Positions 8,801 through 62,975 of a stretch of 64,000 bases of DNA are shown in pieces. Under the pieces are notes generated by a model that saw only the letters and a program-made list of their open reading frames with translations, searched no databases and was not told the DNA's origin. The stretch is from Parabacteroides sp. AD58 (GTDB lineage: Bacteria; Bacteroidota; Bacteroidia; Bacteroidales; Tannerellaceae): assembly GCF_023744375.2 (NCBI RefSeq), contig NZ_CP146284.1, forward strand, positions 186,001-250,000, written 5' to 3'. Both the position numbers and the translations under genes were made by a program. Positions within the stretch are counted from its first letter, which is position 1. Each line of letters opens with the position of its first letter.

Positions 8801-10366
8801 TTCGGTCCGTTTAAGGAACTGAATGTGGTCGGTGATGCCTACGTAGCTGATGGCGGAATGGGTATTGAATTCCTAAATACGTATTATACGTTTTCAGATT
8901 CCATTCATTTGGATACGACAAGCATACAGATCCGTAATCTGGCTTTTCACGATAAGTTCAATCATACGGGGCATGTCGATCTTCGGGTCAATCATGCGCA
9001 TTTTAAGAATTTTGATTATCATGTCAATATCCAAGCCGATAATATGTTGATGTATGATGTCCCTGAAAAGCAGAATCCATTGATTTATGGTGTGGTATAC
9101 GGAACCGGTACGGCTGCAATCAATGGTAACGGGCAGGTGACGAATTTTGATATTAATATGCAAAGTCGTCCCAACACACATGTGTATCTGAATTTCATGG
9201 GTAATTCAACGGCTTCGGAATATGATTTCATTACATTCGTTGATAAGAAAAAGTTGCGGGAAGAGGCTTTGCTCAGAGAAGAAGCAGTTCGTGATTCAAT
9301 TGCCGGTCAGCTGTTTGCAGACGACGAAAGCTCTGACTTACGGATGAACTTCCTGTTGGATATCACTCCTGATGCCAATATTGAGCTGATTATTGATCCG
9401 AATGCCGGTGACCGTATCAAAGGATATGGAAGCGGAAGCATGCAGATTCAATACGGTACGCGTTCAGATGTCCGGATTTATGGGAATTTCGGTATCGAAA
9501 GTGGAAATTATAATTTTAGTTTGCAGCAGTTGATTCATAAGGACTTTAAGATTCGTGAAGGAAGTATGATCAGCTTTAATGGTGATCCGTTTAATGCGAA
9601 CTTGGATATCAATGCCATATATAATGTAACGGCCAATTTGAGTGATTTGGATCAAAGCCTGGCATTGGAGAGTGCGCGGACGAATGTTCCGGTTAATTGC
9701 GTTTTGCAGCTGAGCGGCATGTTGCGACAGCCGAGTATCTCGTTTGATTTGGAATTACCTGGCTCGAACGAGGAACTGGAACGTCAGATGAAAAGTCTGA
9801 TTGATACGGATGATATGATGACTCGTCAGATCGTCTATCTTCTGGTTCTGAACAAATTTTATACGCCTGAATATACAGGAACGCAAGGTTCTAATAATTT
9901 TACCGCTGTGGCTTCTTCCGCTTTGTCGTCTCAGATTTCCAGTTTGCTGAATAATATTACGGATAAAGTGCAAATTGGAACCAATATCCGGGCCAGTGAA
10001 GACGGCATTACTGACACAGAAGTTGAGATGCTTCTTTCAAGCCAGCTACTCAACAACCGATTGCTTTTTAACGGTAACTTCGGATATAAGAACAATCCGA
10101 CCCAAAAGAATGCTATTATCGGTGAGTTTGACCTTGAATATAAGCTGACCCGCAGCGGAGAGATTCGCCTGAAGGCTTATAATCATGCCAACGACATGTA
10201 TCAGTATCTGAAGCAGGCTTTAACAACGCAAGGTGTAGGTATCATGTTTAAGAAAGATTTTACACATTTCTCAGAGTTGTTCCAGCGTCGTCGTCGCCTG
10301 TTTCCTCTTCCGATGCCTGCCGACACGGTTTCTGTACCGCTTGCCCCTAAAGATTCTGTCCGCTGA
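5813..10366 (+). CDS. tamB: TamB/DUF490 family inter-membrane protein
   Basis: A giant (about 1,515 aa) AsmA-superfamily protein. One N-terminal membrane segment (YIVIFLLSLVWILYVVPILL) is followed by long repetitive beta-strand sequence typical of the lipid-conducting groove, and a C-terminal TamB domain (GYGSGSMQIQYG, then LSGMLRQPSISFDLELPG and the tail). It would span the periplasm and assist outer-membrane protein insertion or phospholipid transport. The start is uncertain: no ATG precedes the membrane segment in frame. TTG at 5813 is the best candidate, but it overlaps a TAnnTTTG match (5808-5815), so translation may begin later at a rare start. No TamA neighbour is present here. Confidence 0.88.
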   Translation: MSLKLIRSVIRGLKYIVIFLLSLVWILYVVPILLVNIPFVQKEIATTATQELSRRLGVPVQIERVDIEWFNRLVLEGLYLEDQQGKVMFKANHVAAGFDILPLLDGKLTFNTVRLFGPHIHLSRKTATDPLNLKFVIDAFASKDTTPKKKLDIDLRFNTVLIRQGHFSYDVEDVPQTPDKFNAKHIDIRDLSAKISLKALRKDSIHAQIKKLSLKEGSGFSLDKLTLSVVGNSDSIYVKDFKIALPQTDLRISEAKVDLTEIDSTASNFVDKAKLSLRIAPSHVRLRDLSAFVPAFRNFTDSIEIYAQAAGHVNHFSLKNLTLRYGKKMLLVGKMDLKGITHPQEAYVYGQVSKMYITTVGLSDLLNNFSKDRVVLPAPFVKLGTINFTGEISGFFDNLVAYGRLSTAVGSLQTDLIFGNDKAKNVAAFLKGRVQTNELNLEELLGEQSQLGKAKCGIRIDTKRPVGGHFAGEIQANVERLDYKNYTYQDIRLAGSFRRNAFDGSLQVEDPNISLLVNGLLESKKENTVVNLAVDLAHFKPDKLHLSDKYEEPDISLSLNADFTGNNIDNVVGTIEVDDLSFKTKPDSFALKKLLVKAGSENGLRQLKISSDIVNGEVNGAYSFGTIVPSFMNTLKGYIPTLINTRTLSKKVDENDFTMLLTIENTEALSHTLKLPVTMLQPARIAGSYNNAYNKFRFEAYLPQFQLGNSSFEGGYLHCSNPTDKMDLSLKATQYNAKGTRNYLDLHLDAKEDCVNTYVKWNNNKEHRFGADVSATTCFFMEEPDPEDKEAKPVLRTEIALHETPLIVNDTVWYIRPSSVTLRNGKIDVNNFVVERGKEFVHLNGMVSKEVTDSLKMDLNNFELGYIFDILNIESVKFTGKATGKFNICDLYGSRMLNTDLEVQDFSFNGVKLGRLNLFSEWDDSQRGILMLGSIYKNDSTWSDVSGYIYPVRTPEREPGLSLHFDANDMNIAFLQPFMEKIVQNVKGSGFGKIHLFGPFKELNVVGDAYVADGGMGIEFLNTYYTFSDSIHLDTTSIQIRNLAFHDKFNHTGHVDLRVNHAHFKNFDYHVNIQADNMLMYDVPEKQNPLIYGVVYGTGTAAINGNGQVTNFDINMQSRPNTHVYLNFMGNSTASEYDFITFVDKKKLREEALLREEAVRDSIAGQLFADDESSDLRMNFLLDITPDANIELIIDPNAGDRIKGYGSGSMQIQYGTRSDVRIYGNFGIESGNYNFSLQQLIHKDFKIREGSMISFNGDPFNANLDINAIYNVTANLSDLDQSLALESARTNVPVNCVLQLSGMLRQPSISFDLELPGSNEELERQMKSLIDTDDMMTRQIVYLLVLNKFYTPEYTGTQGSNNFTAVASSALSSQISSLLNNITDKVQIGTNIRASEDGITDTEVEMLLSSQLLNNRLLFNGNFGYKNNPTQKNAIIGEFDLEYKLTRSGEIRLKAYNHANDMYQYLKQALTTQGVGIMFKKDFTHFSELFQRRRRLFPLPMPADTVSVPLAPKDSVR

Positions 10367-11773: not shown

Positions 11774-11836
11774 TTATAGTCATTTATAAACCTTATCTTG
11801 GAGCTTAAATTATATACACATCTAATTAAGAAGCTG

Positions 11837-51899: not shown

Positions 51900-54353
51900 T
51901 CAGATGAAGAGATTCAGATTCGCTTCTTCGGCTCTTTCCAGATAGGTGGCTACACCGCCTAATTTGACGTTATCCAGCAGTTCTTCCTGCTTGACTCCCA
52001 TCACATCCATGCTCATGGTGCAGGCAATCATTTCTACTCCGTTGTCGATGGCCTGTTGCATCAGACTTTCCAGGCTGTCAATGCGTTTCTGTTTCATGAT
52101 CATCCGCATCATCTTGCTGCCCATACCGCCCATATTCATCTTAGACAGTTTGAGCTTTTCACTGCTGGATGGAAGCATCCAACCGAACATTTTCCCCATG
52201 AAGTCTTTTTCAACGGCCGGTTTGTTCCGCTTCTTGATGATGTTCAGTCCCCAGAACGTGAAGAAGAGGGTGACTTTCTTTCCTGCGGCTGCTGCTCCAT
52301 TGGCAATCACGAAAGTAGCTAAAGCCTTGTCTAAGTCGTCACTGAAGACAACGATGGTCTTGTGATCGGCCGGCTGGCTCGTGGCGGCAGAACAGACTGG
52401 CGCTGCTTTTTGGATGGTTGCGGCTACAATTCCGTTCCGGTTTTCCAGACTTGTCAATTGGGCTCCGGTCATTTTACACCAGGAAGCGACATCTTTCCCG
52501 AAAGCCTGATCGGTCGCTTTGATGACTAAGGCTTCCCCTTCTTTCAGTTCTGCATAGTTCTTCTTCAGCTGCAGAATAGGACCAGGGCACATCAATCCGC
52601 AGGCATCGACCGATAAAACCGGTTTGGATGGATTGGCAGGCTGGCCATCGTCTGTTTTTTCCTCTGTGTCGGCTTTGGCCTGGCAGTGGGCATCGTTGCA
52701 GACAGGAGCCGTGGCTGTACTCCAGGTCTTATATCCACCCGATAAGTTCCGTACATTCTTGAATCCGTTCTGTACCAAGATTCGATAGGCAAGATAACCT
52801 CTTAATCCGACGGCACAAGTAACCACAATCGGTTTGTCTTTGGGCAGTTCGTCCAGATGTTCGCGTAATTCGTCCACCGGGATATTGATAAAGCCCGGAA
52901 TCGTTCCTAAGCTGTATTCATCTTTAGTACGGACATCAATCTTGACTACATCGGCTTCGAGCTTGTCGATATCGCGCCAGGTGATGATCCGAACGCGGTC
53001 TTTCAGGATGTTGTCGGCAACGAAACCGGCCATGTTCACCGGATCTTTGGCGGCGGCGTATGGAGGCGCATACGCATGTTCGAGTTCCATCAGGTCATAA
53101 ATCGTACCTTCGTGCTGGATGGTCTGGGCCAACATTTCAATACGTTTGTCCACACCGCCGAATCCTACTACCTGCGCACCCAGCAACACACCTGTTTCGG
53201 GCGCAAACAAGATCTTGATGGATAAAGGAACGGCTCCCGGATAATAACCCGCATGCGAACTTCCGTGTGTATAAGACGAGATATACGGAATGCCTTCCCG
53301 TTTCAACAGCTTGGCATTGGCTCCAGCTGCAGCAACTGTCAGGTCGAATATCTTGGCGATTGATGTTCCCATCGCTCCTTTATATACTTCCTTGTTGCCG
53401 TAAACGATATTATCGGCGGCAATACGACCTTGCTTGTTGGCTGGTCCTGCCAATGGAATCATGGCTGGCTTGTGAGTAATCAGATGTTGGATTTCGACAG
53501 CATCACCCAAGGCATAAATATTCGGATCCGACGTTTGCAGATAGGCATTGACCTGGATTCCGCCTCGTTCTCCCAAAGACAAACCAGCTTCGCGGGCCAG
53601 TTGGTTTTCCGGGCGCACACCAATGCTCAGGATTACCAGATCGGTCTGTACGGTTTTTCCGCTTGCCAGATGAACAGCCAGGGATTGGTCCGCAAGGGTT
53701 TCAAATTTCTTCACGCCGTCGCCCAAAAGCAATGTTACACCTTTGCTGGTGAGATGTTGGTGCACCAAGGCTGCCATCGAGAAGTCAAGAGGAGCCATGA
53801 CCTGATCGGCCATTTCAATCACTGTTACCTGTACTCCGGCTTCATGCAGGTTCTCTGCCATTTCCAGTCCGATGAATCCACCGCCTACGACAACCGCTTT
53901 CTTCGGCTTCATCTGTTGCAGGAATCCTTTGATGGCATCTGTATCGGGAACATTCCGCAGGGTAAAGATTTTCGGACTGTCAATGCCTTCGATTCTCGGG
54001 CGCAACGGCTCGGCTCCCGGCGAGAGTACCAGTTTGTCATAACTCTCTGTATAGACTTCTCCGCTTTGCAGGTTCTTAACTTCCACCTGTTTTGTTCCAG
54101 GTAATATACGGGTTACTTCCTGACGGGTACGGATGTCAATACGGAAGCGGCTGACAAACCCCTTTACGGTCTGTACAAACAGCTTGTTCCGTTCTTTGAT
54201 GGTACCGCCAATGTAATAGGGCAGACCACAATTGGCGTATGATACGTATTCCCCTCTTTCAAATAAGATGATCTGGGCTTTCTCGTCGTTTCTTCTGAGT
54301 CGTGCGGCAACGGTGGCACCTCCGGCTACACCTCCAATAATCAAGTACTTCAT
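51900..54353 (-). CDS. CoA-disulfide-reductase-type flavoprotein fused to rhodanese, TusA and DsrE domains
   Basis: An 817-residue cytosolic fusion for sulfane-sulfur handling. Residues about 1-320 are the FAD/NAD(P)H domain (IIGGVAGGATVAARLRR; active Cys42 in SYANCGLPYYIGG), followed by the dimerisation domain to about 440. A rhodanese domain (about 450-545) has the loop VTCAVGLRG with its catalytic Cys. A TusA-like domain (about 585-655) has DACGLMCPGPILQLKK. A DsrE/DsrE2-like domain (about 670-817) starts KTIVVFSDDLDKALATFVIANGAAAAGKKVTLFFTFWGL and has a conserved Cys in MIACTMSMDVMG. It probably reduces CoA- or protein-bound persulfides and relays sulfur between domains. A riboswitch-like leader precedes it. 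Confidence 0.92.
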   Translation of the reverse strand: MKYLIIGGVAGGATVAARLRRNDEKAQIILFERGEYVSYANCGLPYYIGGTIKERNKLFVQTVKGFVSRFRIDIRTRQEVTRILPGTKQVEVKNLQSGEVYTESYDKLVLSPGAEPLRPRIEGIDSPKIFTLRNVPDTDAIKGFLQQMKPKKAVVVGGGFIGLEMAENLHEAGVQVTVIEMADQVMAPLDFSMAALVHQHLTSKGVTLLLGDGVKKFETLADQSLAVHLASGKTVQTDLVILSIGVRPENQLAREAGLSLGERGGIQVNAYLQTSDPNIYALGDAVEIQHLITHKPAMIPLAGPANKQGRIAADNIVYGNKEVYKGAMGTSIAKIFDLTVAAAGANAKLLKREGIPYISSYTHGSSHAGYYPGAVPLSIKILFAPETGVLLGAQVVGFGGVDKRIEMLAQTIQHEGTIYDLMELEHAYAPPYAAAKDPVNMAGFVADNILKDRVRIITWRDIDKLEADVVKIDVRTKDEYSLGTIPGFINIPVDELREHLDELPKDKPIVVTCAVGLRGYLAYRILVQNGFKNVRNLSGGYKTWSTATAPVCNDAHCQAKADTEEKTDDGQPANPSKPVLSVDACGLMCPGPILQLKKNYAELKEGEALVIKATDQAFGKDVASWCKMTGAQLTSLENRNGIVAATIQKAAPVCSAATSQPADHKTIVVFSDDLDKALATFVIANGAAAAGKKVTLFFTFWGLNIIKKRNKPAVEKDFMGKMFGWMLPSSSEKLKLSKMNMGGMGSKMMRMIMKQKRIDSLESLMQQAIDNGVEMIACTMSMDVMGVKQEELLDNVKLGGVATYLERAEEANLNLFI

Positions 54354-54359
54354 ATTTCA

Positions 54360-54470
54360 GTAAGTTTTTTAGTTCCTGTCTTTATCTATGGTAAGTTTTC
54401 GGGGTCCTTCAGCATGGCGGTTGTGTCCCGCAGCTGGCATTCCTACCTGTAAAACTTAGCGTGTTTGTTG
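54360..54470 (-). promoter_or_regulatory. Riboswitch-like structured 5' leader of the persulfide enzyme gene
   Basis: On the minus strand TAAGTTTT (54451-54458) pairs with AAAACTTA (54392-54399), closing a long hairpin. Inside are GGT/ACC, CAGC/GCTG and GCGG/CCGC stems separated by conserved-looking asymmetric loops (AGGAATGC opposite AAGG; apical GACACAA). The same AAAACTTA recurs at 54361-54368, about seven bases before the start codon, so the 5' arm has two alternative partners. This layout suits a translational switch. I could not match it to a known riboswitch class; a ligand linked to sulfur metabolism would be a guess. Confidence 0.55.
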
Positions 54471-54476
54471 TAAAAA

Positions 54477-54511
54477 CAAAGGTAATTAATGTTTTGTACT
54501 TCTCCTTCAAA
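54477..54511 (-). promoter_or_regulatory. Promoter of the persulfide enzyme gene
   Basis: On the minus strand TTTG (54508-54511) and TACCTTTG (54477-54484) are 23 bases apart. Transcription would start near 54470, just upstream of the structured leader. Confidence 0.65.
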
Positions 54512-54609
54512 AATAGCATCAATGAAATTTATAGTCTGATAGATAGTTTATTGATGTGTAAGTAAAAATGCGAATTTATTGTCATGATGTAATTTTATTG
54601 CTGCTTTCT

Positions 54610-54802
54610 CTGGCATATGAAAAAGAAAAATGAACGCAAATTCGTGAAAACATAATACCTTCTTTTTTAATTCCGGCATATTTTGAATAAAAGCTGGCGT
54701 ATTTTACTGAAAAGGTAGGCATAAATTTATGAAAAGGTAGGCATGTTTTCATACGAAAGTAACGAGAATTGAATGAAAAACTGGTGTGTTTTGCCTCCAA
54801 AA
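54610..54802. repeat. Degenerate 21-22-bp tandem repeats, about nine units
   Basis: Units start near 54610, 54631, 54652, 54672, 54693, 54715, 54737, 54759 and 54781. The best-kept ones read CTGGCATATGAAAAAG, CTGGCGTATTTTACTGAAAAG, GTAGGCATAAATTTATGAAAAG and GTAGGCATGTTTTCATACGAAAG in shortened form. The last five units are spaced exactly 22 bases. The repeat is non-coding and different in sequence from the array at 17.1 kb but has the same period. Confidence 0.6.
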
Positions 54803-55189
54803 CAGATGTTGAAGGTTAAAATGTGTTCTGATTGAATATTGATCTGTTAAAATAGATGTATAAAATAGTCGATTGGTGTATTCATAAAGCTACTGAATCC
54901 TGATTTTTTATCAGAAACGATTTAAAATCTGATTCACTTTTAAATAATAAAAAGATAGCTTTACAAGCAGGATGCTGACAAAACCGTTTGATTCCTGCAA
55001 GGGAATTCCTGCATGACTGTCCGATAGTCATTGAATAGGTGTTTCGGGCAACTTTTTGTCAAAGCTGAACTCGCTGTGCGTCGTTTATTTCCAACCAACC
55101 TTACGACTGCTTTTAAATATCGCAGAAATGGAAAGGTAATTTTGACAAAATGTCAAAATATGCTTATTGATGCAGTAGCTAGCCTTGTA
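54803..55189. other. AT-rich intergenic region left of the acyltransferase cassette
   Basis: About 390 bases without a supportable gene. A frame at 55031-55249 has no recognisable features, an alternative start codon and runs into a terminator copy; I do not call it. No tRNA or RNA fold was seen. Confidence 0.5.
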
Positions 55190-55270
55190 CAAAAAAGAGA
55201 AAATATCCTAATCAGATACTTTCTCTTTTTCGTATATAAGCCCCAATGATTTTTAGTCTCTGTTGGAGAA
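55190..55270. repeat. 81-bp direct repeat, left copy (terminator plus gene 3' end remnant)
   Basis: The first 40 bases (55190-55229) are identical to 57681-57720 and form a terminator hairpin, AAGAGAAA / TTTCTCTT with an inner TATC / GATA. The next 41 bases match 57721-57761 at 34 positions, ending in an identical block that on the minus strand reads TTCTCCAACAGAGACTAA, the last codons of the dihydroorotate-dehydrogenase-like gene. This copy is therefore a detached 3' end of that gene. Confidence 0.85.
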
Positions 55271-55271
55271 G

Positions 55272-56171
55272 TTATGGAAGGTCTATAATAGCAGTTAAAA
55301 TTGTTGTGAATTTTTGTGCGCCATTGGTATTCAGATGATCTACGTCGTAAAAGTCATTATGATTGAATCGCTTATCATTCATGAAATTTAAATATATAGT
55401 TTCAGGATACGTATCTAAGATTTCATTTATAGATTTATGCATGAGATTTAATTGTGTTGGATCAAGACAGCTTGAGTAAAGGTCTGTTACAGGTGTTGTT
55501 AGTATGATAAGCTTGATGTTTTTTTCTTTACATATATTGGCAAAATGATATAGTATAGCCATATTTTCTTTAACGTGACTAGGATTCTTGTTTGTATGAT
55601 ATTTAGCCGTTATATTGGCATTGTGTAAATTTAAATCTTTTTTTCTGTTCTCTATCGTATAATCAGTTCCGAATCCTAAATAATTACATTTGCATGTATT
55701 TTCTCCTTTTACGTGCATAAGAAACTTGTTTTTCCATTGAGGAATAGTCAGTTCTAAGCTAAAACGCGTTGGAGGATAATCCATATATATACCATAATAT
55801 TTTAATAGAGTTTCTGAAGAACTGAAATCTTCCATCATTTCAGGTAAAGTATGATATGATATTGCAATAACAATTTGTTTTAAAGATGACATATTTTCGA
55901 TGAAACGGTCAAATAAAAATACGTCTCTTTTTAGATCTTGTGATGAGTAAGCTATGTTGAAACATTTAGATTTAAATAATATTGGATTTATAGCGTGATA
56001 CGTATGAGAGCTTCCAAATACGAGGGTCTCAATTTCTCCTGCATGATTTTCCATAAATAGATTTTTTAGCTTATAAGCATTAGGAATGCTGCGAAGATAT
56101 ATTTCGACAATTGGTAAAATAATTAATAAGGGGATAATAAATAATATAATATTTTTGATGAATTTTTTCAT
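55272..56171 (-). CDS. Membrane-anchored SGNH-like hydrolase/acetyltransferase partner
   Basis: A 299-residue protein with one N-terminal membrane helix (NIILFIIPLLIILPIVEIYL) and an extracytoplasmic SGNH-type domain. The block I-like motif is VFGSSHTYHAINP (Ser near residue 54) and the C-terminal catalytic pair is DFYDVDHLNTNGAQKF (DxxH-like). Such proteins accompany MBOAT acyltransferases and move acetyl groups onto polysaccharides (compare AlgJ/AlgX or PatB-like partners). The coding sequence is notably AT-rich. It starts five bases after the MBOAT gene, so the pair is one transcript; its stop abuts the left direct repeat. Confidence 0.75.
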   Translation of the reverse strand: MKKFIKNIILFIIPLLIILPIVEIYLRSIPNAYKLKNLFMENHAGEIETLVFGSSHTYHAINPILFKSKCFNIAYSSQDLKRDVFLFDRFIENMSSLKQIVIAISYHTLPEMMEDFSSSETLLKYYGIYMDYPPTRFSLELTIPQWKNKFLMHVKGENTCKCNYLGFGTDYTIENRKKDLNLHNANITAKYHTNKNPSHVKENMAILYHFANICKEKNIKLIILTTPVTDLYSSCLDPTQLNLMHKSINEILDTYPETIYLNFMNDKRFNHNDFYDVDHLNTNGAQKFTTILTAIIDLP

Positions 56172-56176
56172 GTGAA

Positions 56177-57610
56177 TTAAAATTGAAAAAAAATAAATTG
56201 GGCTGTTTCTCCTTGAAATATAATTATAATGGAAATAATGGCATAATAGATAAAGTGTCTGATATATTTATTCTGTATGCTATTTTCTATTTGTAAGGTA
56301 TGTTGTTTATCTCTTTGCAACCATTCAGCAACAAGCATAATAATGATCCAAATTAGAGCTGTTTTTCCATATTCTGGTAAAGTGAGTTCAAAATTAGTAA
56401 ACATTCTGTTGTAGTACTTTATGGCTATACCTATATTTTCAGCTCTAAAAATGATCCAGCCCATTAGTACTAATATGAAGGTTGTAGTCATTTGAATTAA
56501 TTCTTTAAAAGATGGGAGAATTGAGTGTTCTGCAATTCCTGCAAGGTGTTTTCTGTTTTTGTTTGTTATTAAAAGAGGAATAAAGAGTAGTGCATGATAG
56601 GCGCCCCATAAGAGAAATGTCCAATTAGCACCATGCCATAGGCCACTGGTCAAAAATATAATAAGAGTATTTTTTATGCTTTTTAATTTTCCATAGCGGC
56701 TTCCTCCCATTGGTATATATAAATAATCACGGAACCAGGTGGTAAGTGAAATATGCCATTTCCTCCAAAACTCTGCAATATCTCTTGAAAAATAGGGGTA
56801 ATTAAAATTCCTCATCAACTTGATACCGAATATTTTAGATGTTCCAATAGCTATATCACTATAACCTGAGAAATCGCCATATATTTGCATTGAAAACATC
56901 AATGCTCCATAAAACAAAGAGATAGAGTCCAAGCTGTCTATTTCCGCAAATACATGATTGACTCCTGCTGCGCAATTGTCTGCTACGACAATTTTTTTAA
57001 AGAAGCCCCATAACATTTGGCGTAGACCATCGATTGCTGTTTCATATTTAAATGTCCGTATACTTGAAAATTGTGGTAGTAGATTTGTTGATCTTTCTAT
57101 AGGACCTGCTACCAATTGAGGAAAGAAACTGATATATGCAAAAAATGAAATAATATTATGAGACGCTTTAATATCTCCTCTATATACATCTATTGTATAG
57201 CTTAAAGCTTGGAATGTATAAAAACTTATACCTACCGGTAAAATTATATTTATAGTTATGAAGTCAAGATGAATTCCGAATTGTAAGAGAATATAGGATA
57301 AACTTTGTATGAAAAAGTTGTAATATTTAAAAACTGCTAGGATGCCAATGTTGATTAATATGTTACAGATAGCAATAAGTCTTTTCTTAGATTTGTCTGA
57401 TTGATAGTAGTCTATCATAATACCACTATAAAAACTACATAGAGAAGTAAAAGAGATTAGAAATAAAAAACGGTAATCCCACCATCCATAAAAAATATAG
57501 CTTACAACAACTATAAATAGATTTTGTAGATTTATATTATTTTTTAGTTGCCAGTATAAGATAAATACAATTGGTAAAAAAATTAAAAAATCAATTGAGT
57601 TAAAAATCAT
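56177..57610 (-). CDS. MBOAT-family O-acyltransferase (AlgI-like)
   Basis: A 477-residue polytopic membrane protein. Family motifs are GISFYTFQALSYTIDVYRGDI, FFPQLVAGPIER, MQIYGDFSGYSDIAIGTSKIFGIKLMRNFNYPYFSRDIAEFWRKWHISLTTWFRDYLYIPMGGSR and FLTSGLWHGANWTFLLWGAYH, the last holding the conserved catalytic histidine. AlgI-type proteins pass acetyl (or another acyl) groups from the cytosol across the inner membrane to a periplasmic partner, here the SGNH protein. The target is probably a surface polysaccharide (inference). Spot counts give about 20-40% GC in this cassette against about 50% in the next gene, suggesting transfer. Confidence 0.92.
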   Translation of the reverse strand: MIFNSIDFLIFLPIVFILYWQLKNNINLQNLFIVVVSYIFYGWWDYRFLFLISFTSLCSFYSGIMIDYYQSDKSKKRLIAICNILINIGILAVFKYYNFFIQSLSYILLQFGIHLDFITINIILPVGISFYTFQALSYTIDVYRGDIKASHNIISFFAYISFFPQLVAGPIERSTNLLPQFSSIRTFKYETAIDGLRQMLWGFFKKIVVADNCAAGVNHVFAEIDSLDSISLFYGALMFSMQIYGDFSGYSDIAIGTSKIFGIKLMRNFNYPYFSRDIAEFWRKWHISLTTWFRDYLYIPMGGSRYGKLKSIKNTLIIFLTSGLWHGANWTFLLWGAYHALLFIPLLITNKNRKHLAGIAEHSILPSFKELIQMTTTFILVLMGWIIFRAENIGIAIKYYNRMFTNFELTLPEYGKTALIWIIIMLVAEWLQRDKQHTLQIENSIQNKYIRHFIYYAIISIIIIFQGETAQFIFFQF

Positions 57611-57680
57611 TATGTATGAGAAATATTAATTCGAATTTTAATGATCGACGAAGATATGCATTATATCCATACCTCCAAAG

Positions 57681-57761
57681 CAAAAAAGAGAAAATATCCT
57701 AATCAGATACTTTCTCTTTTCCATATATATACTCCAACGACTTTTAGTCTCTGTTGGAGAA
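57681..57761. repeat. 81-bp direct repeat, right copy (terminator plus intact gene 3' end)
   Basis: This copy contains the terminator (57681-57720) and the genuine last codons of the dihydroorotate-dehydrogenase-like gene on the minus strand. Against the left copy, 74 of 81 bases agree with no gaps; the mismatches all fall between the terminator and the gene end. Confidence 0.85.
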
Positions 57762-58721
57762 ATATTTCATGAACTGTGAACGTTCGTATAAAGCTGGATT
57801 CGGAATATTGGCATAATTCAGCTTTCCGATAAACTGATCCAATGATTCATAATGAGCCTGATGCATCCATTCTTCTACACAAGTAGTGATTTGTGAGATG
57901 ATTTCTGCTCCGTGTGTGTAGATAGCGCTGCACATTTCAACGGCAGATGCTCCGGCCAGCAAGCATTTCACAACGTCTTCCCAGTCGTGTACGCCAGTAG
58001 AAGAAGCAATGCTGATATTAGGAATCTTACCCGATACAATGGCTGTCCAGCGAATGGTGTCACTCAAGTCTGCATGGCTACTGAATACATTGCCTGATAC
58101 CAGCTGCATTGTATTCAGATCAATGTCCGGCTGATAGAAACGGTTGAACAGAACAACTCCGTCAGCTCCATTAGCCTTCAGTTGATTAACCAATGCCGGC
58201 ATGTTAGAGATGTATTTTCCGAGTTTGATGATGACAGGAATCGTAACCACTTGTTTTACTTTCTTCAGGATCTGAGTATATAACCGATACAAGTCTTCGC
58301 AGCTGTGATGGATGTCTGTCTCAAGGAAGAAGACATTCAGTTCAATCGCATCGGCTCCGGCATCTTGCAGTTGTTTGGCAAACTCAATCCATGTATCTGC
58401 CCGATAGCAGTTGATGCTGGCAATGATAGGAATGGTACACAATTCTTTTGATTTGCGGATCAGTTCCAGATAGTTCTCTACATGATTTGCTTTGATGTAG
58501 CCACGGATGTAATCAGCAGCTTCCGGATAATCAGATTCTTGTAACATGGCGTCGCTCTGCATTTCCATTTGTTCCTCAAATAAAGATTTCAGAACGATGG
58601 CACCGGCACCGGCTTTTTCAAATTCCTTGTTGCGTTCTGCGTTGTTGGTCAAGCCAGAACTGCTGACGATAATAGGAGACTGAAGTGTCAGTCCCGCGTA
58701 TTGTGTCTTTAGGTTAATCAT
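57744..58721 (-). CDS. Dihydroorotate dehydrogenase-like flavoprotein
   Basis: A 325-residue FMN-binding TIM barrel of the DHOD-like group. It starts MINLKTQYAGLTLQSPIIVSS and contains AGAGAIVLKSLFEEQ, IIASINCYRADTWIEFAKQLQDAGADAIELNVFF, VIIKLGKYISNMPALVNQLKANGADGVVLFNRF and SSTGVHDWEDVVKCLLAGASAVEMCSAIYTHG. It is a class often found in Bacteroidetes besides the true PyrD, and is closer to PreA/DHOD-like proteins; the substrate is unknown. Its last 18 bases plus terminator are duplicated 2.5 kb away. It follows yggS by 64 bases. Confidence 0.87.
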   Translation of the reverse strand: MINLKTQYAGLTLQSPIIVSSSGLTNNAERNKEFEKAGAGAIVLKSLFEEQMEMQSDAMLQESDYPEAADYIRGYIKANHVENYLELIRKSKELCTIPIIASINCYRADTWIEFAKQLQDAGADAIELNVFFLETDIHHSCEDLYRLYTQILKKVKQVVTIPVIIKLGKYISNMPALVNQLKANGADGVVLFNRFYQPDIDLNTMQLVSGNVFSSHADLSDTIRWTAIVSGKIPNISIASSTGVHDWEDVVKCLLAGASAVEMCSAIYTHGAEIISQITTCVEEWMHQAHYESLDQFIGKLNYANIPNPALYERSQFMKYFSNRD

Positions 58722-58785
58722 ATCTATTTTGTTTTTGTTGTTTATTTACTTTGTCGTTGTGTTAACTCGCTTTGGATATTGGTTT

Positions 58786-59448
58786 TTAATATTCTCTCTC
58801 ACCAAAGATATAAGTTCCCACACGTATCATGTTGCTTCCTTCTTCGATGGCCAGCTTGTAGTCGTGTGTCATTCCCATCGAAAGGATGGAAAATGCTTCC
58901 GACTGACTGAAAACACTTCCTTTTAGCTCGGTGAAAAGCTCATGCAAGGTATGAAATTCCTTGCGGATCTGTGTTTCGTCGTCTGTTAAAGTTGCCATAC
59001 CCATAATACCGCAGATTTGTACATGTGGCAAATCCGGCAGGTGATGGACCAAATCACGACATTCGTTGGGTGTAAATCCGTGTTTAGTCTCTTCTGCCGC
59101 CACATGGATTTCCAGTAAGACGCGGATGATCCGTTCATTCTTGGCCGCCTGTTTGTCTATTTCCTTCAATAGCTTCAGAGAGTCGACGCTATGAATCAGA
59201 CTGATGAATGGAGCAATCTCTTTCACCTTATTGCTTTGCAGCGGACCGATGAAATGCCATTCAATATCTTTGGGGAGAACATGCTGTTTGGCTACCAGCT
59301 CTTGAGCTCTGCTTTCTCCGAATACTCGCTGTCCGGCCTGATAAGCTTCTTGCAGAGCTTCAACCGGATGAAACTTTGAAACGGCTACAAGCGTCACTCC
59401 TTGAGGAAGTGAAGCCTGTAGTTCTTGAATATGCTGAGCTATATCCAT
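58786..59448 (-). CDS. YggS-family pyridoxal phosphate homeostasis protein
   Basis: A 220-residue PLP-binding barrel (PROSC/YggS) that buffers vitamin B6 and has no known catalytic reaction. The PLP lysine lies in LVAVSKFHPVEALQEAY (Lys26). Further motifs are VFGESRAQELVAK, IEWHFIGPLQSNKVKEI, LIHSVDSLKLL, ETKHGFTP and LSMGMTHDYKLAIEEGSNMIRVGTYIFGER, the phosphate-binding C-terminus. It lies 12 bases downstream of the DUF4494 gene, implying cotranscription. Confidence 0.93.
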   Translation of the reverse strand: MDIAQHIQELQASLPQGVTLVAVSKFHPVEALQEAYQAGQRVFGESRAQELVAKQHVLPKDIEWHFIGPLQSNKVKEIAPFISLIHSVDSLKLLKEIDKQAAKNERIIRVLLEIHVAAEETKHGFTPNECRDLVHHLPDLPHVQICGIMGMATLTDDETQIRKEFHTLHELFTELKGSVFSQSEAFSILSMGMTHDYKLAIEEGSNMIRVGTYIFGEREY

Positions 59449-59460
59449 ATATGATATGTT

Positions 59461-59964
59461 TTAGATCGTTGTTTCTGCCGCTTTCTTTTGTTCAGCAATC
59501 AGTTCTTCACCTGATTTGGGTTCAGAAGGAATGCTGTTCGGATCAAACGGGAATACGTCCATCAACTGAGTTTCTGTAACCGAAGCGATTGTATAATCGG
59601 ATAAAGTACCTTTCATGCCTTCTTCCAATACAGCGATGGCTTCTTTTAAGGTTGATGCCTGAGCCAGCATCTGGGCTGCTGTTTTCTTTTCAGCCCCGCT
59701 CTTTTCATCAAGGGTAATGAAATATACTTTTATTTTATAGTAACGATCGCCATTCTCATTGAAGAATAATTCTGAAATACGTGCACGCTTGATGTCTGTT
59801 ACCGTAAACTCACCTGTAATGAAAGGACGAATTTCTTCGATAATACGTGATTCAGCTTCAGTAAACGACAGGGCATCTACAAGATAAGGCTCTGTTACTT
59901 TCTTCTGCATACCATTTTCAAGCATCTTCTCGAAAGAGACTTTACATTCAAACCAGTTGTGCAT
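59461..59964 (-). CDS. DUF4494 family protein
   Basis: A 167-residue cytosolic protein of the Bacteroidetes DUF4494 family. It begins MHNWFECKVSFEKMLENGMQKKVTEPYLVDALSFTEAESRIIEEI and continues with GEFTVTDIKRARISELFFNENGDRYYKIKVYFITLDEKSGAEKK, the two segments that identify the family. The C-terminal tail is low in structure. Function is unknown. It is the first gene of a DUF4494-yggS-DHOD-like series with a promoter just upstream. Confidence 0.87.
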   Translation of the reverse strand: MHNWFECKVSFEKMLENGMQKKVTEPYLVDALSFTEAESRIIEEIRPFITGEFTVTDIKRARISELFFNENGDRYYKIKVYFITLDEKSGAEKKTAAQMLAQASTLKEAIAVLEEGMKGTLSDYTIASVTETQLMDVFPFDPNSIPSEPKSGEELIAEQKKAAETTI

Positions 59965-60004
59965 CTTTATTCTGTTTATATTAATATTATCTTGTTTCTT
60001 CCGA

Positions 60005-60012
60005 CAAAGGTA
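60005..60012 (-). promoter_or_regulatory. -7 promoter element (TACCTTTG) for the DUF4494-yggS unit
   Basis: On the minus strand TACCTTTG lies about 41 bases upstream of the DUF4494 start codon. The fkp gene diverges on the other side. Confidence 0.65.
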
Positions 60013-60128
60013 ATAGCAATTTATAAATAAAACAATTGATAGCTATTTTTTCGGAAATGTATTTTCGTGAATAATTTGTACTTTTATCGCCTCATAGAAT
60101 GGTATAAAATCAAGTTAAACAGAATTAC

Positions 60129-62963
60129 ATGAAGACATTGCTTTCATTGCCACCTAATTTGGTGGGTTGTTTTCATCAGATAGAAAAGGTTTCGGAAGGA
60201 GACTGGTATTGTACGTCTGATCCCGTCGGTGTCCGGTTGGGTTCGGGTGGCGGAACTACCTGGCTATTGGAATCATGTTGGCAGAAAGAAAATAAAGACA
60301 TTGACTTTTCTTCTTGGCTGGCTGCCGAAAAAAGAATCCTGCTCCATGCCGGCGGACAAAGCCGGCGTTTGCCTTCGTATGCGCCTTCGGGAAAGATTCT
60401 GACGCCTGTTCCGGTGTTCCGTTGGGCTCGCGGACAACGGCTGTCGCAGAATCTGCTGTCGTTACAGCTCCCGTTGTATCGGGAAATTATGCAGAAGGCA
60501 CCAGATTCTTTGCATACCTTAGTGGCCAGCGGAGACGTTTATATCCGCAACAGTGAGCCTTTGCAGGAAATACCTGACGTGGATGTTGTATGTTATGGCT
60601 TATGGGTTGACCCTTCACTGGCAACCAATCATGGCGTTTTCGTTTCAGATCGGAATTATCCGGACGAACTGGATTTTATGTGGCAAAAGCCTTCTTTGGA
60701 ACAGTTGGCTTCTTTGTCGGGTTCACATTTGTTCCTGATGGATATTGGTATTTGGCTGTTGAGTGACAAAGCTGTCCGGTTGTTGGCAGAGCATTCGAAG
60801 AAAGCCGACGGAAGCTGGAACTTCTACGATATGTATGGCGAATTCGGTTTGGCATTGGGGCGGAATCCGCAGGTAAAGGATGAAGCTTTGAACCAGCTGA
60901 AGGTGGCTATTCTGCCGTTGCCTGGAGGTGAGTTTTATCATTATGGGACGAGTAGGGAATTGATTTCTTCTACGTTGGCCGTACAGAACCTGGTGCGCGA
61001 CCAGCGGGCCATTATGCATCGGAAAGTCAAACCGCATCCGGCAATGTTTGTACAGAATGCCATACTGGATAAGCCTTTAACGGCTGATAATTCGGAAGTA
61101 TGGATTGAGAATAGCCATGTGTCAGGAAAATGGCAACTGGCCAACAGGCATATTATAACCGGTGTGCCACGAAATGATTGGAGTCTGACTTTGCCTGCTG
61201 GTGTTTGTGTCGATGTTGTTCCTTTGCGGGAAGCGGTTTTTGTGGCCCGTCCGTATGGTTTCTATGATGCCTTTAAGGGAAAACGGGATGATGTTTCAAC
61301 ACAGTGGATGGGAAAACCGGTGCAGGCGTGGATGCAGGAACGTCAGGTTGCATTGCCCGATTTCTCGGATTTGCAGGAAGCTCCTATATTCCCGGTTTGT
61401 ACATCTGTTGAGGAGTTAGGGCTTGTCTTACGCTGGATGATATCCGAACCAGAGTTGACCGTCGGTAAAGAAGTCTGGGAGAAAGCCGAGAAGTTGTCGG
61501 CAAATCAACTGTCTGATCAGGCTAATCTTTTGCGGTTGGTAGAACAACGGGAATCTTATTGTCGGGAAAACTGGCCAATGTTGGCAAAGAACCATGCGAA
61601 AAGTGTCTTCTATCAGTTGGATTTGGCCGATGCAGCTGAAGCCTTTGCGCGTTGGCAGTTGCCTTTGCCCGATATATTGCCTGCTGATGAACCGATCATG
61701 AAGCGCATTCATAATTATATGTTCCGTTCGAAAGCTCATCAATTGGCCGGACAACCTTGGGAAGCCGAGCAGCAGGCTGCTTTTGCCTTACTACGGGATG
61801 GCTTGTTGCAAACGCTTGATTCGGATTTACAGCGTCCGCACCGGCAAGTTTATCCCGATCAGATCGTATGGGGAAGAAGTCCAGTGCGGATTGACTTGGC
61901 TGGCGGATGGACGGATACGCCTCCGTATTGTCTTTTCTCGGGAGGAAATGTAGTAAATGTGGCGATCGAGCTGAATGGGCAGCCGCCTTTGCAGGTATAT
62001 ATCAAGCCATCAAAAGAGTATCGGATTACGTTGCGCTCAATTGATTTGGGAGCCATGGAAGAAATACATACTTGGGAAGAATTATCCGACTTCAATAAAG
62101 TGGGTTCGCCTTTTTCTATTCCGAAAGCCGCCTTGGCCTTGGCCGGATTTTTACCCCGCTTTTCAGCAGATAAGTTTACTTCATTGGAAGAACAGCTGAA
62201 GGACTTCGGCAGTGGCTTGGAGATTACGTTGTTGGCCGCTATTCCGGCAGGTTCAGGTCTGGGGACAAGTTCAATTCTGGCAGCAACCGTTTTAGGTTCG
62301 TTGTCCGACTTCTGTGGCTTGGGCTGGGATAAGAATGAAATTGGTAGCCGTACATTGATCTTGGAACAACTGCTCACTACCGGCGGCGGCTGGCAGGATC
62401 AATATGGAGGCGTATTACATGGCTTGAAGTTATTACAGACCAACGATGGCTTTTATCAGCATCCGCAAGTCCGTTGGTTGCCTGAATATCTTTTCACGGA
62501 CCCATGTTATCGATCTTGTCATATATTGTATTATACGGGAATAACCCGGACAGCAAAGCATATATTGGCAGAGATTGTTCAGGGAATGTTTCTCAACAGT
62601 GCCACGCATCTGCATATTTTAGGCGAGATGAAACGTCATGCCTTGGATATGTTCGAGGCAATTCAGTTAGGAAACTTCGAGCAGTACGGCCGTCTGGTAG
62701 GAAAGAGTTGGGAACAGAACAAGGCGCTTGATTCCGGAACAAATCCTCCGGCAGTAGAAGCCATTATCAATTGTATCAAAGACGAGGCTTTAGGCTATAA
62801 GTTACCGGGAGCCGGCGGTGGCGGATATTTATATATCGTAGCGAAAGATCCGGAAGCTGCCCGTCGGATTCGGCAGACTCTGATGACGAATCCTGCGAAC
62901 GTAAACGCTCGTCTGGTAGAAATGAATCTTTCAGATAAAGGCTTGCAGGTAAGCCGGTCTTGA
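60129..62963 (+). CDS. fkp: Bifunctional L-fucokinase/GDP-L-fucose pyrophosphorylase Fkp
   Basis: Salvage enzyme that turns free L-fucose into GDP-fucose for capsule and glycoprotein decoration. The N-terminal pyrophosphorylase has GSGGGTTWLLESC and LHAGGQSRRLPSYAPSGKI (about residues 38-90). A beta-helix-like linker follows, and the C-terminal GHMP kinase starts with GRSPVRIDLAGGWTDTPPYCLFSGG and has PAGSGLGTSSILAATVLG and LPGAGGGGYLYIVAKD (ATP-binding loops). At 944 residues it matches the known Bacteroides fragilis enzyme in size and order. It appears to be monocistronic; the only promoter-like sequence seen is an imperfect TACTTTTA near 60079. Confidence 0.96.
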   Translation: MKTLLSLPPNLVGCFHQIEKVSEGDWYCTSDPVGVRLGSGGGTTWLLESCWQKENKDIDFSSWLAAEKRILLHAGGQSRRLPSYAPSGKILTPVPVFRWARGQRLSQNLLSLQLPLYREIMQKAPDSLHTLVASGDVYIRNSEPLQEIPDVDVVCYGLWVDPSLATNHGVFVSDRNYPDELDFMWQKPSLEQLASLSGSHLFLMDIGIWLLSDKAVRLLAEHSKKADGSWNFYDMYGEFGLALGRNPQVKDEALNQLKVAILPLPGGEFYHYGTSRELISSTLAVQNLVRDQRAIMHRKVKPHPAMFVQNAILDKPLTADNSEVWIENSHVSGKWQLANRHIITGVPRNDWSLTLPAGVCVDVVPLREAVFVARPYGFYDAFKGKRDDVSTQWMGKPVQAWMQERQVALPDFSDLQEAPIFPVCTSVEELGLVLRWMISEPELTVGKEVWEKAEKLSANQLSDQANLLRLVEQRESYCRENWPMLAKNHAKSVFYQLDLADAAEAFARWQLPLPDILPADEPIMKRIHNYMFRSKAHQLAGQPWEAEQQAAFALLRDGLLQTLDSDLQRPHRQVYPDQIVWGRSPVRIDLAGGWTDTPPYCLFSGGNVVNVAIELNGQPPLQVYIKPSKEYRITLRSIDLGAMEEIHTWEELSDFNKVGSPFSIPKAALALAGFLPRFSADKFTSLEEQLKDFGSGLEITLLAAIPAGSGLGTSSILAATVLGSLSDFCGLGWDKNEIGSRTLILEQLLTTGGGWQDQYGGVLHGLKLLQTNDGFYQHPQVRWLPEYLFTDPCYRSCHILYYTGITRTAKHILAEIVQGMFLNSATHLHILGEMKRHALDMFEAIQLGNFEQYGRLVGKSWEQNKALDSGTNPPAVEAIINCIKDEALGYKLPGAGGGGYLYIVAKDPEAARRIRQTLMTNPANVNARLVEMNLSDKGLQVSRS

Positions 62964-62975
62964 CAGATACAAGAA

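Follow-up and report, generated by a model that had tools for sequence, protein, structure and literature searches.

Among the closest described systems is the single-crossover integration of circularised fragments in E. coli, seen with an engineered conjugated plasmid in tests of homology-facilitated illegitimate recombination (PMC3240628). In that study, 56 of the 60 tested clones gave a PCR product diagnostic of partial target duplication and 14 sequenced clones carried duplications of 109-950 bp, for which the authors' explanation is circularisation followed by a single crossover; the event class is rare (5.8e-9 per recipient). A second point of comparison is offered by IMEs and CIMEs, which sit at the 3' ends of housekeeping genes and of which the latter lack an integrase by definition (PMC5704250). 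A third comes from phage serotype-conversion modules, such as Shigella Sf6 oac and the gtr clusters, with their horizontally spreading glycan-modifying cargo (PMC4159516).

Here we describe a window of 64,000 nucleotides from Parabacteroides sp. AD58 (the whole stretch of DNA that was analysed), in which genes for a membrane-bound O-acyltransferase (MBOAT) and an SGNH/GDSL-fold protein lie between two copies of the tail of a dihydroorotate-dehydrogenase-like (DHOD-like) gene. As in the E. coli report (PMC3240628), the target is partially duplicated with foreign DNA in between and no integrase; here, however, we are dealing with a natural operon in several lineages, and the copies are short (80-90 bp), with the terminator included in the window and in loci L122 and L126. 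With the IMEs and CIMEs (PMC5704250) the locus shares direct repeats of which one is the end of an intact gene, whereas it differs in its exact two-gene cargo, in that no related element was recognised at the site, and in that other cases have other targets. The cargo is of the same kind as in the phage modules, and a related pair in the viral record L071 lies near an integrase, but the cassette comes without phage genes and no phage att sequence was identified. The features of the locus are:

55161..55191, no strand assigned: about 31 bp at the distal junction, missing from the empty site of P. faecalis (alignment with P. faecalis)
55190..55270, minus strand: detached copy of the DHOD-like gene 3' end (18 coding bases, spacer, terminator hairpin), 91% identical to the right copy
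55272..56171, minus strand: SGNH/GDSL-fold protein, 299 aa, with an N-terminal helix at residues 2-28 (ORF and structure model)
56177..57610, minus strand: MBOAT, 477 aa, a DltB-like membrane-bound O-acyltransferase (PF03062, 1.6e-28; DltB 6bug, 2.9e-25)
57611..57680, minus strand: 70-bp leader from the right repeat to the MBOAT start (sequence)
57681..57761, minus strand: right repeat copy, with which the DHOD-like gene natively ends, terminator included (repeat comparison and folding)
57744..58721, minus strand: intact DHOD-like gene, 325 aa (NF005741, 432.5 bits, cut-off 303)

In order of transcription on the minus strand, the DHOD-like gene is followed by its terminator, the leader, the MBOAT gene, the SGNH gene and the second gene-tail copy, which begins 1 base past the SGNH stop codon. 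Downstream of this left copy lie about 836 bp without a large gene and then an oxidoreductase gene (51900-54353), whose 817-aa product fuses domains of the pyridine-nucleotide oxidoreductase, rhodanese, TusA and DsrE types. The direct repeats (55190-55270 and 57681-57761) are 81 nt long and align gap-free with 74 identical positions; all 7 mismatches fall at positions 20-40 (0-based, from the gene side), and read on the plus strand the initial 40 bases are without any difference. The right copy includes the final 18 bases of the DHOD-like gene (57744-57761, FSNRD-stop). Both copies form strong hairpins (z -6.07 left, -6.14 right) with a T run after each, and the identical 40-bp part holds 15-bp inverted arms (93%) and a 7-bp loop. 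With up to 3 mismatches allowed, the 29-base hairpin core occurs at just these two places in 64 kb, against 0 expected from 100 shuffles. The only ORFs of at least 80 aa between the repeats are MBOAT and SGNH; no recombinase or integrase ORF is in the list at that length, and when the interval was considered as an integron cassette an integrase ORF was likewise absent from it. An Rfam and tRNA search of the window gave no match. The initial annotation had described the two genes between repeats of this length and identity, the right one as the true gene end with terminator and the left as a detached copy with the last 18 bases, and had seen no integrase inside; the repeat alignment and the ORF list confirm this description.

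The sister species Parabacteroides faecalis AGMB00274 (L001) has an empty site with a single repeat copy. On the gene side, window positions 57683-62973 align with it as 5.3 kb of 90.2% identical DNA, and on the left side positions 54904-55270 align at 67%; on L001 the two flank alignments share just one repeat copy (8961-9039). At the distal junction L001 has 31 bases fewer than the window, and we leave it undecided whether these are a native indel or scar. The single-copy empty site supports the insertion of the cassette, at the 3' end of the gene as the initial annotation had proposed, and it is at odds with a vertical history in which all relatives carry both genes and both copies. In a comparison of the kind that had been suggested for Parabacteroides, a window-type pair was found beside the DHOD-like gene at none of 33 other contig loci (judged on the sequence around the gene, sometimes little) and at none of 30 genus loci (flanks of up to about 1.5 kb, in a few cases very little), two sets that overlap. 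The 3' part of the DHOD-like gene was matched in 37 of 38 genus genomes, P. faecalis among them, with loci obtained for 30; SGNH relatives occur in 5 of the 38, at 23-42% identity and in different places. Protein clusters comprise 220 sequences for the DHOD-like protein, 32 for MBOAT and 31 for SGNH, sizes that give only a hint of patchiness because clusters at 90% identity mix species.

Behind the same DHOD-like gene, two Tannerellaceae MAGs carry a different, convergent MBOAT (36%) with neighbours (L011:2771-7038 and L012:9008-11873), possibly by chance. The intergenic stretch that the window shares with P. faecalis runs, in that species, into broken-looking MacB-like genes (L001:9760-12370) where the window has the oxidoreductase gene. 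Neither the window (54354-55160) nor P. faecalis has a MarR-family gene there, and several other Parabacteroides have one between the DHOD-like and oxidoreductase genes; at least 6 of the scanned neighbour proteins belong to this family.

The cassette has a GC content of 0.296 against 0.417 for the whole window, and the AT-richest 2.4-kb stretch of the window coincides with it. GC3 is 0.24 for SGNH and 0.26 for MBOAT, and 0.29-0.57 for the 38 other listed ORFs. Of the initial estimate of 20-40% GC in the cassette against about 50% in one neighbouring line of sequence, the AT-richness stands, whereas the second figure fits one side only: gene GC is about 42-45% on the DHOD side and about 45-53% on the opposite side. 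Composition alone carries little weight, because the non-coding DNA adjoining the left repeat is also AT-rich (GC 0.30-0.34) and the pair is AT-richer than its own flanks in 33 of 41 other pair-holding regions; AT-richness is partly a trait of the MBOAT-SGNH pair itself. The gap between pair and flanks in the window (0.30 vs 0.45) is the largest compared with those 41 regions.

DltB/DltD, PatA/PatB and AlgI/AlgJ are acyl-transfer pairs, and the cassette shares with them the combination, in one operon, of an MBOAT and an SGNH protein with an N-terminal helix. The MBOAT matches PF03062 with 100.4 bits (cut-off 27) and has DltB as its nearest solved structure, but scores below the cut-off of the NCBIfam DltB model (162 bits against 375). 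The model of the SGNH protein (pLDDT 94.1, pTM 0.90) resembles GDSL esterases, DltD and PatB; unlike in the known pairs, its sequence profile gave no match among the solved structures searched. It has no Pfam match, and some relatives have PF27429. Residues S55, D278 and H279 are invariant across 25 sequences, and we take the catalytic role to lie among them. Both parts of an MBOAT/SGNH system, the MBOAT domain and an adjoining SGNH-fold partner with a Ser and an Asp/His motif, are thus present. Judging from fold and pairing, the SGNH protein is the probable second step of a two-protein O-acyltransferase, in which MBOAT would carry an acyl group across the membrane and SGNH would put it on a glycan; the pair probably acylates a surface glycan.

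Similar arrangements were found behind other genes at MBOAT-SGNH loci of Bacteroidota genomes, drawn from a part of the matches. In L121 the target is rnc (NCBIfam RNaseIII, above cut-off), and a 90-bp, 100% identical repeat includes the last 43 bases of the gene; it ends 12 bp from the MBOAT start, and the first codon of the detached copy is the SGNH stop codon. This repeat has no terminator-like fold (z about 0), and therefore a terminator is not a constant part of the scar. The MBOAT frame of L121 is split at a G run (2599-2847 and 1379-2506), possibly a phase-variable tract or an assembly error. In L122 and L126 the target is a gene with thioredoxin/AhpC domains, whose product, by the reading of its start, may be a lipoprotein. 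There the repeat comprises the last 20 bases and the terminator (80-89 bp), the operon runs ACP, short-chain dehydrogenase, KAS III, MBOAT, SGNH, and the SGNH gene is fused in frame to the copy, ending ...DALAQ like the upstream protein, with the terminator duplicated. In a third related genome the two junctions are on separate contigs (L282 and L097), the middle portion lying outside both. In L271 the SGNH end runs, out of frame by our own reading, into a copy (90%) of the xerD segment that encodes the C-terminal part, which is cut by the contig end and spans at least 252 bp; the best family of this xerD (205 residues present) is XerD, at 271.9 bits below the cut-off of 329.6. The target genes thus differ across cases (DHOD-like, rnc, thioredoxin-domain, xerD), the repeats look unrelated, a shared core being judged by eye only, and repeat lengths are 80-90 bp in the window, L121, L122 and L126. 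Two further loci were set aside. L083 (1151-6346) carries MBOAT-SGNH, a HigA-family antitoxin gene (TIGR02607) and a small gene between two 755-bp, 98.9% identical copies from the 5' part, and not the 3' end, of a Fic-domain gene; L117 has a 56-bp, 84% repeat behind a gene, with a third partial copy, which was not classed as a gene-end copy. In the literature searched we found no description of such a scar occurring naturally, which leaves its absence there unproven.

Insertion, duplication and recurrence behind other genes are established by these comparisons; food for thought is how the operons arrived. The explanation we favour, giving it slightly under an even chance, is that a horizontally acquired MBOAT-SGNH operon was inserted behind the DHOD-like terminator when a circularised fragment entered by a single homologous crossover, with no integrase. 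The incoming fragment would have consisted of the 3' end of a related gene followed by the operon. End joining would close it into a circle, creating the junction between SGNH and gene tail, and one RecA-type crossover in the homologous tail would bring the circle in. Gene conversion may continue between the resulting direct repeats, and recombination between them could also excise the cassette as a loop. Since the last 18 bases of the gene and the terminator are duplicated beyond the operon, the host gene is left intact and the newcomer obtains a ready-made terminator. We prefer this integrase-free route because the targets differ, repeat length varies and no recombinase lies between the copies. 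A target duplication of variable length enclosing foreign DNA is present (80-90 bp, and at least 252 bp in L271), and the different targets, unrelated-looking repeats and lengths from 80 to more than 250 bp would fit homology at any gene at hand. Moreover, the 7 differences between the window copies all fall in the 23-base spacer from stop codon to hairpin and none in the hairpin, a pattern that a crossover within the hairpin, joining on a foreign tail, would leave. The single-copy empty site, the outlying composition of the cassette, the signs of recombination between repeat copies in the thioredoxin-domain family and the E. coli products as a precedent (PMC3240628) speak for it as well. It counts against the single crossover that, for RecA to recombine efficiently, 81 bp is short, that the E. 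coli events were rare, and that no donor with gene tail and cassette but no duplication was among the loci read.

Site-specific integration is a doubtful though sizeable possibility. The repeats would then be attL and attR of an element (IME, island or prophage) for which the 3' end and terminator of the gene served as attB, its integrase having been lost, as in a CIME-like remnant, or acting in trans. The topology is the same as that of the crossover product, and at one locus the two are indistinguishable. As in a CIME, the repeats flank the cassette, one copy is the end of the intact target gene, and P. faecalis provides a relative with a single-copy empty site; the inverted arms and loop of the hairpin could also serve a tyrosine recombinase. 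In the viral record L071 (6321-10361) consecutive genes encode a tyrosine integrase, DUF3127, MBOAT and SGNH, beside a gene for an endolysin; its related pair (50%/37% identity) lies one small gene from the integrase. Of the 10 viral records with an MBOAT relative, integrase matches occur in 4. In L271 the duplicated xerD itself encodes a tyrosine recombinase, which leaves room for this explanation there. Against it, the window has no integrase ORF between its repeats, and a cargo of exactly two genes, with the repeats at distances of 70 and 1 bp (in L121, 12 and 0 bp), would be compact for a decayed island. In a scan of 71 of the 90 listed neighbour ORFs from this site elsewhere, no integrase was among the best 25 of 80 families (each of more than one protein). 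Among viral contigs the hairpin, gene-end and left-spacer patterns matched none, and the DHOD-like protein matched one stretch, with no relative; an SGNH alignment gave 8 stretches, none confirmed, in a search that was insensitive, since it missed the L071 relative. Plasmid and phage records contained no near match. One att site cannot account for like scars at several different target genes, whose repeats by eye look unrelated, and the recurrence of such scars therefore shifts the weight away from an integrase. The remark of the initial annotation that the cassette entered "as integrating elements do" consequently finds no support in its site-specific sense, with no recombinase inside, no element recognised at the site in the sequences compared and a scar that recurs with unrelated-looking repeats. 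A single common att site as a general explanation was rejected on the same grounds: the target genes differ every time and the repeats look unrelated.

Distinctly unlikely, in our judgement, is an insertion with a long target duplication, produced by template switching or a wide staggered break, whose copies were identical at first and have since drifted. It would account for 80-90 bp duplications at unrelated genes without an enzyme, and the L121 copies are identical. In the window, however, the left and right copies differ at 7 of 23 spacer bases, the right copy and P. faecalis at only 2, with the detached coding end unchanged (small numbers), and the repeats of 252 bp in L271 and 755 bp in L083 would demand a very long stagger. 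That terminator-like dispersed repeats flank the operon by chance, or that the assembly is at fault, is highly improbable: several other flanking repeats (L221, L223, L251, L235) do resemble promoter motifs or dispersed repeats by eye, but the window repeat contains coding sequence of the gene, its core is confined to two places in 64 kb, the empty site has a single copy, and the MBOAT cluster holds 32 sequences (proteins alone, without repeat context).

How often does such a scar occur? The MBOAT-SGNH pair was contained in 99 of 105 regions surveyed, and in 8 of the 99 a direct repeat of some kind flanked it (E<1e-3). Among pairs with 300 bp or more on each side, flanking repeats were found for 7 of 85, compared with 6 of 197 gene pairs taken as controls (p 0.059; 2 of 201 in an earlier control set), and therefore flanking repeats in general are not clearly enriched; we reject the general claim that repeats flank these pairs as not significant. 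A narrower criterion, a repeat that covers a gene's 3' end and reappears at the end of a downstream gene, held in 150 sequences for 4 of 101 paired SGNH genes (window, L121, L122, L126) and 1 of 1357 other ORFs. In later sets no such repeat turned up, whether at SGNH genes (0 of 6), at their neighbours (0 of 57) or at ORFs from stretches of Parabacteroides chromosomes (0 of 496). With the window excluded, the counts are 3 of 106 paired SGNH genes and 1 of 1910 other ORFs (p 0.0005), or p 0.008 with L122 and L126 counted as one event; this low rate (2 events) is itself a point against the single crossover. The enrichment at SGNH genes is only suggestive, because the cases had been seen before the criterion was fixed, resident genes make up most of the controls, and there are related loci in the set. 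The sole gene-tail repeat at a non-SGNH gene (L246:5755-5792 and 11783-11820; 38 bp, 89%) lies in an apparent polysaccharide gene cluster.

Entry of a small operon without integrase or transposase is usually traceless, and a duplicated gene tail with terminator is a readable footprint: it names site and orientation, the host gene still works, a terminator is supplied, and repeats are there for a possible loss of the operon. It is tentative, and on the unlikely side, that Bacteroidales gain glycan-modifying operons integrase-free and are left with a standard scar, in which the operon stands behind a conserved gene and a copy of the gene tail, often with a terminator, directly follows the operon's last gene or is fused with it, and that active repeats make of it a cassette reversible by homologous recombination alone. 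If general, such scars would allow integrase-free acquisition to be recognised simply from sequence, and the surface-sugar chemistry of gut bacteria would have a reversible switch.

Whether the copies recombine can be read from the three genomes with the thioredoxin-domain target, to which the insertion is common. Six columns show, in both copies, a state peculiar to one species, and no column sets the two copies apart in all three genomes; in two-species comparisons inside the repeat, 11 columns pair by species and 4 by copy. Among the 58 gene-side columns the grouping follows species (with ties); in the last 18 columns, as in the flanks, it follows the copy. Measured across the full repeat, the G210 and G303 copies have equally close or closer counterparts in other species. 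A mosaic of this kind is consistent with partial gene conversion and not with full homogenisation, and partial conversion between the copies appears well supported in this family; because concerted evolution is only partial, our confidence in the single crossover is slightly lowered. In the window, the copies differ at 0 of 18 bases in the coding end and 7 of 23 in the spacer (Fisher 0.012, comparison chosen post hoc), and the two hairpin loops are alike, with 3 sites at which P. faecalis has a different base.
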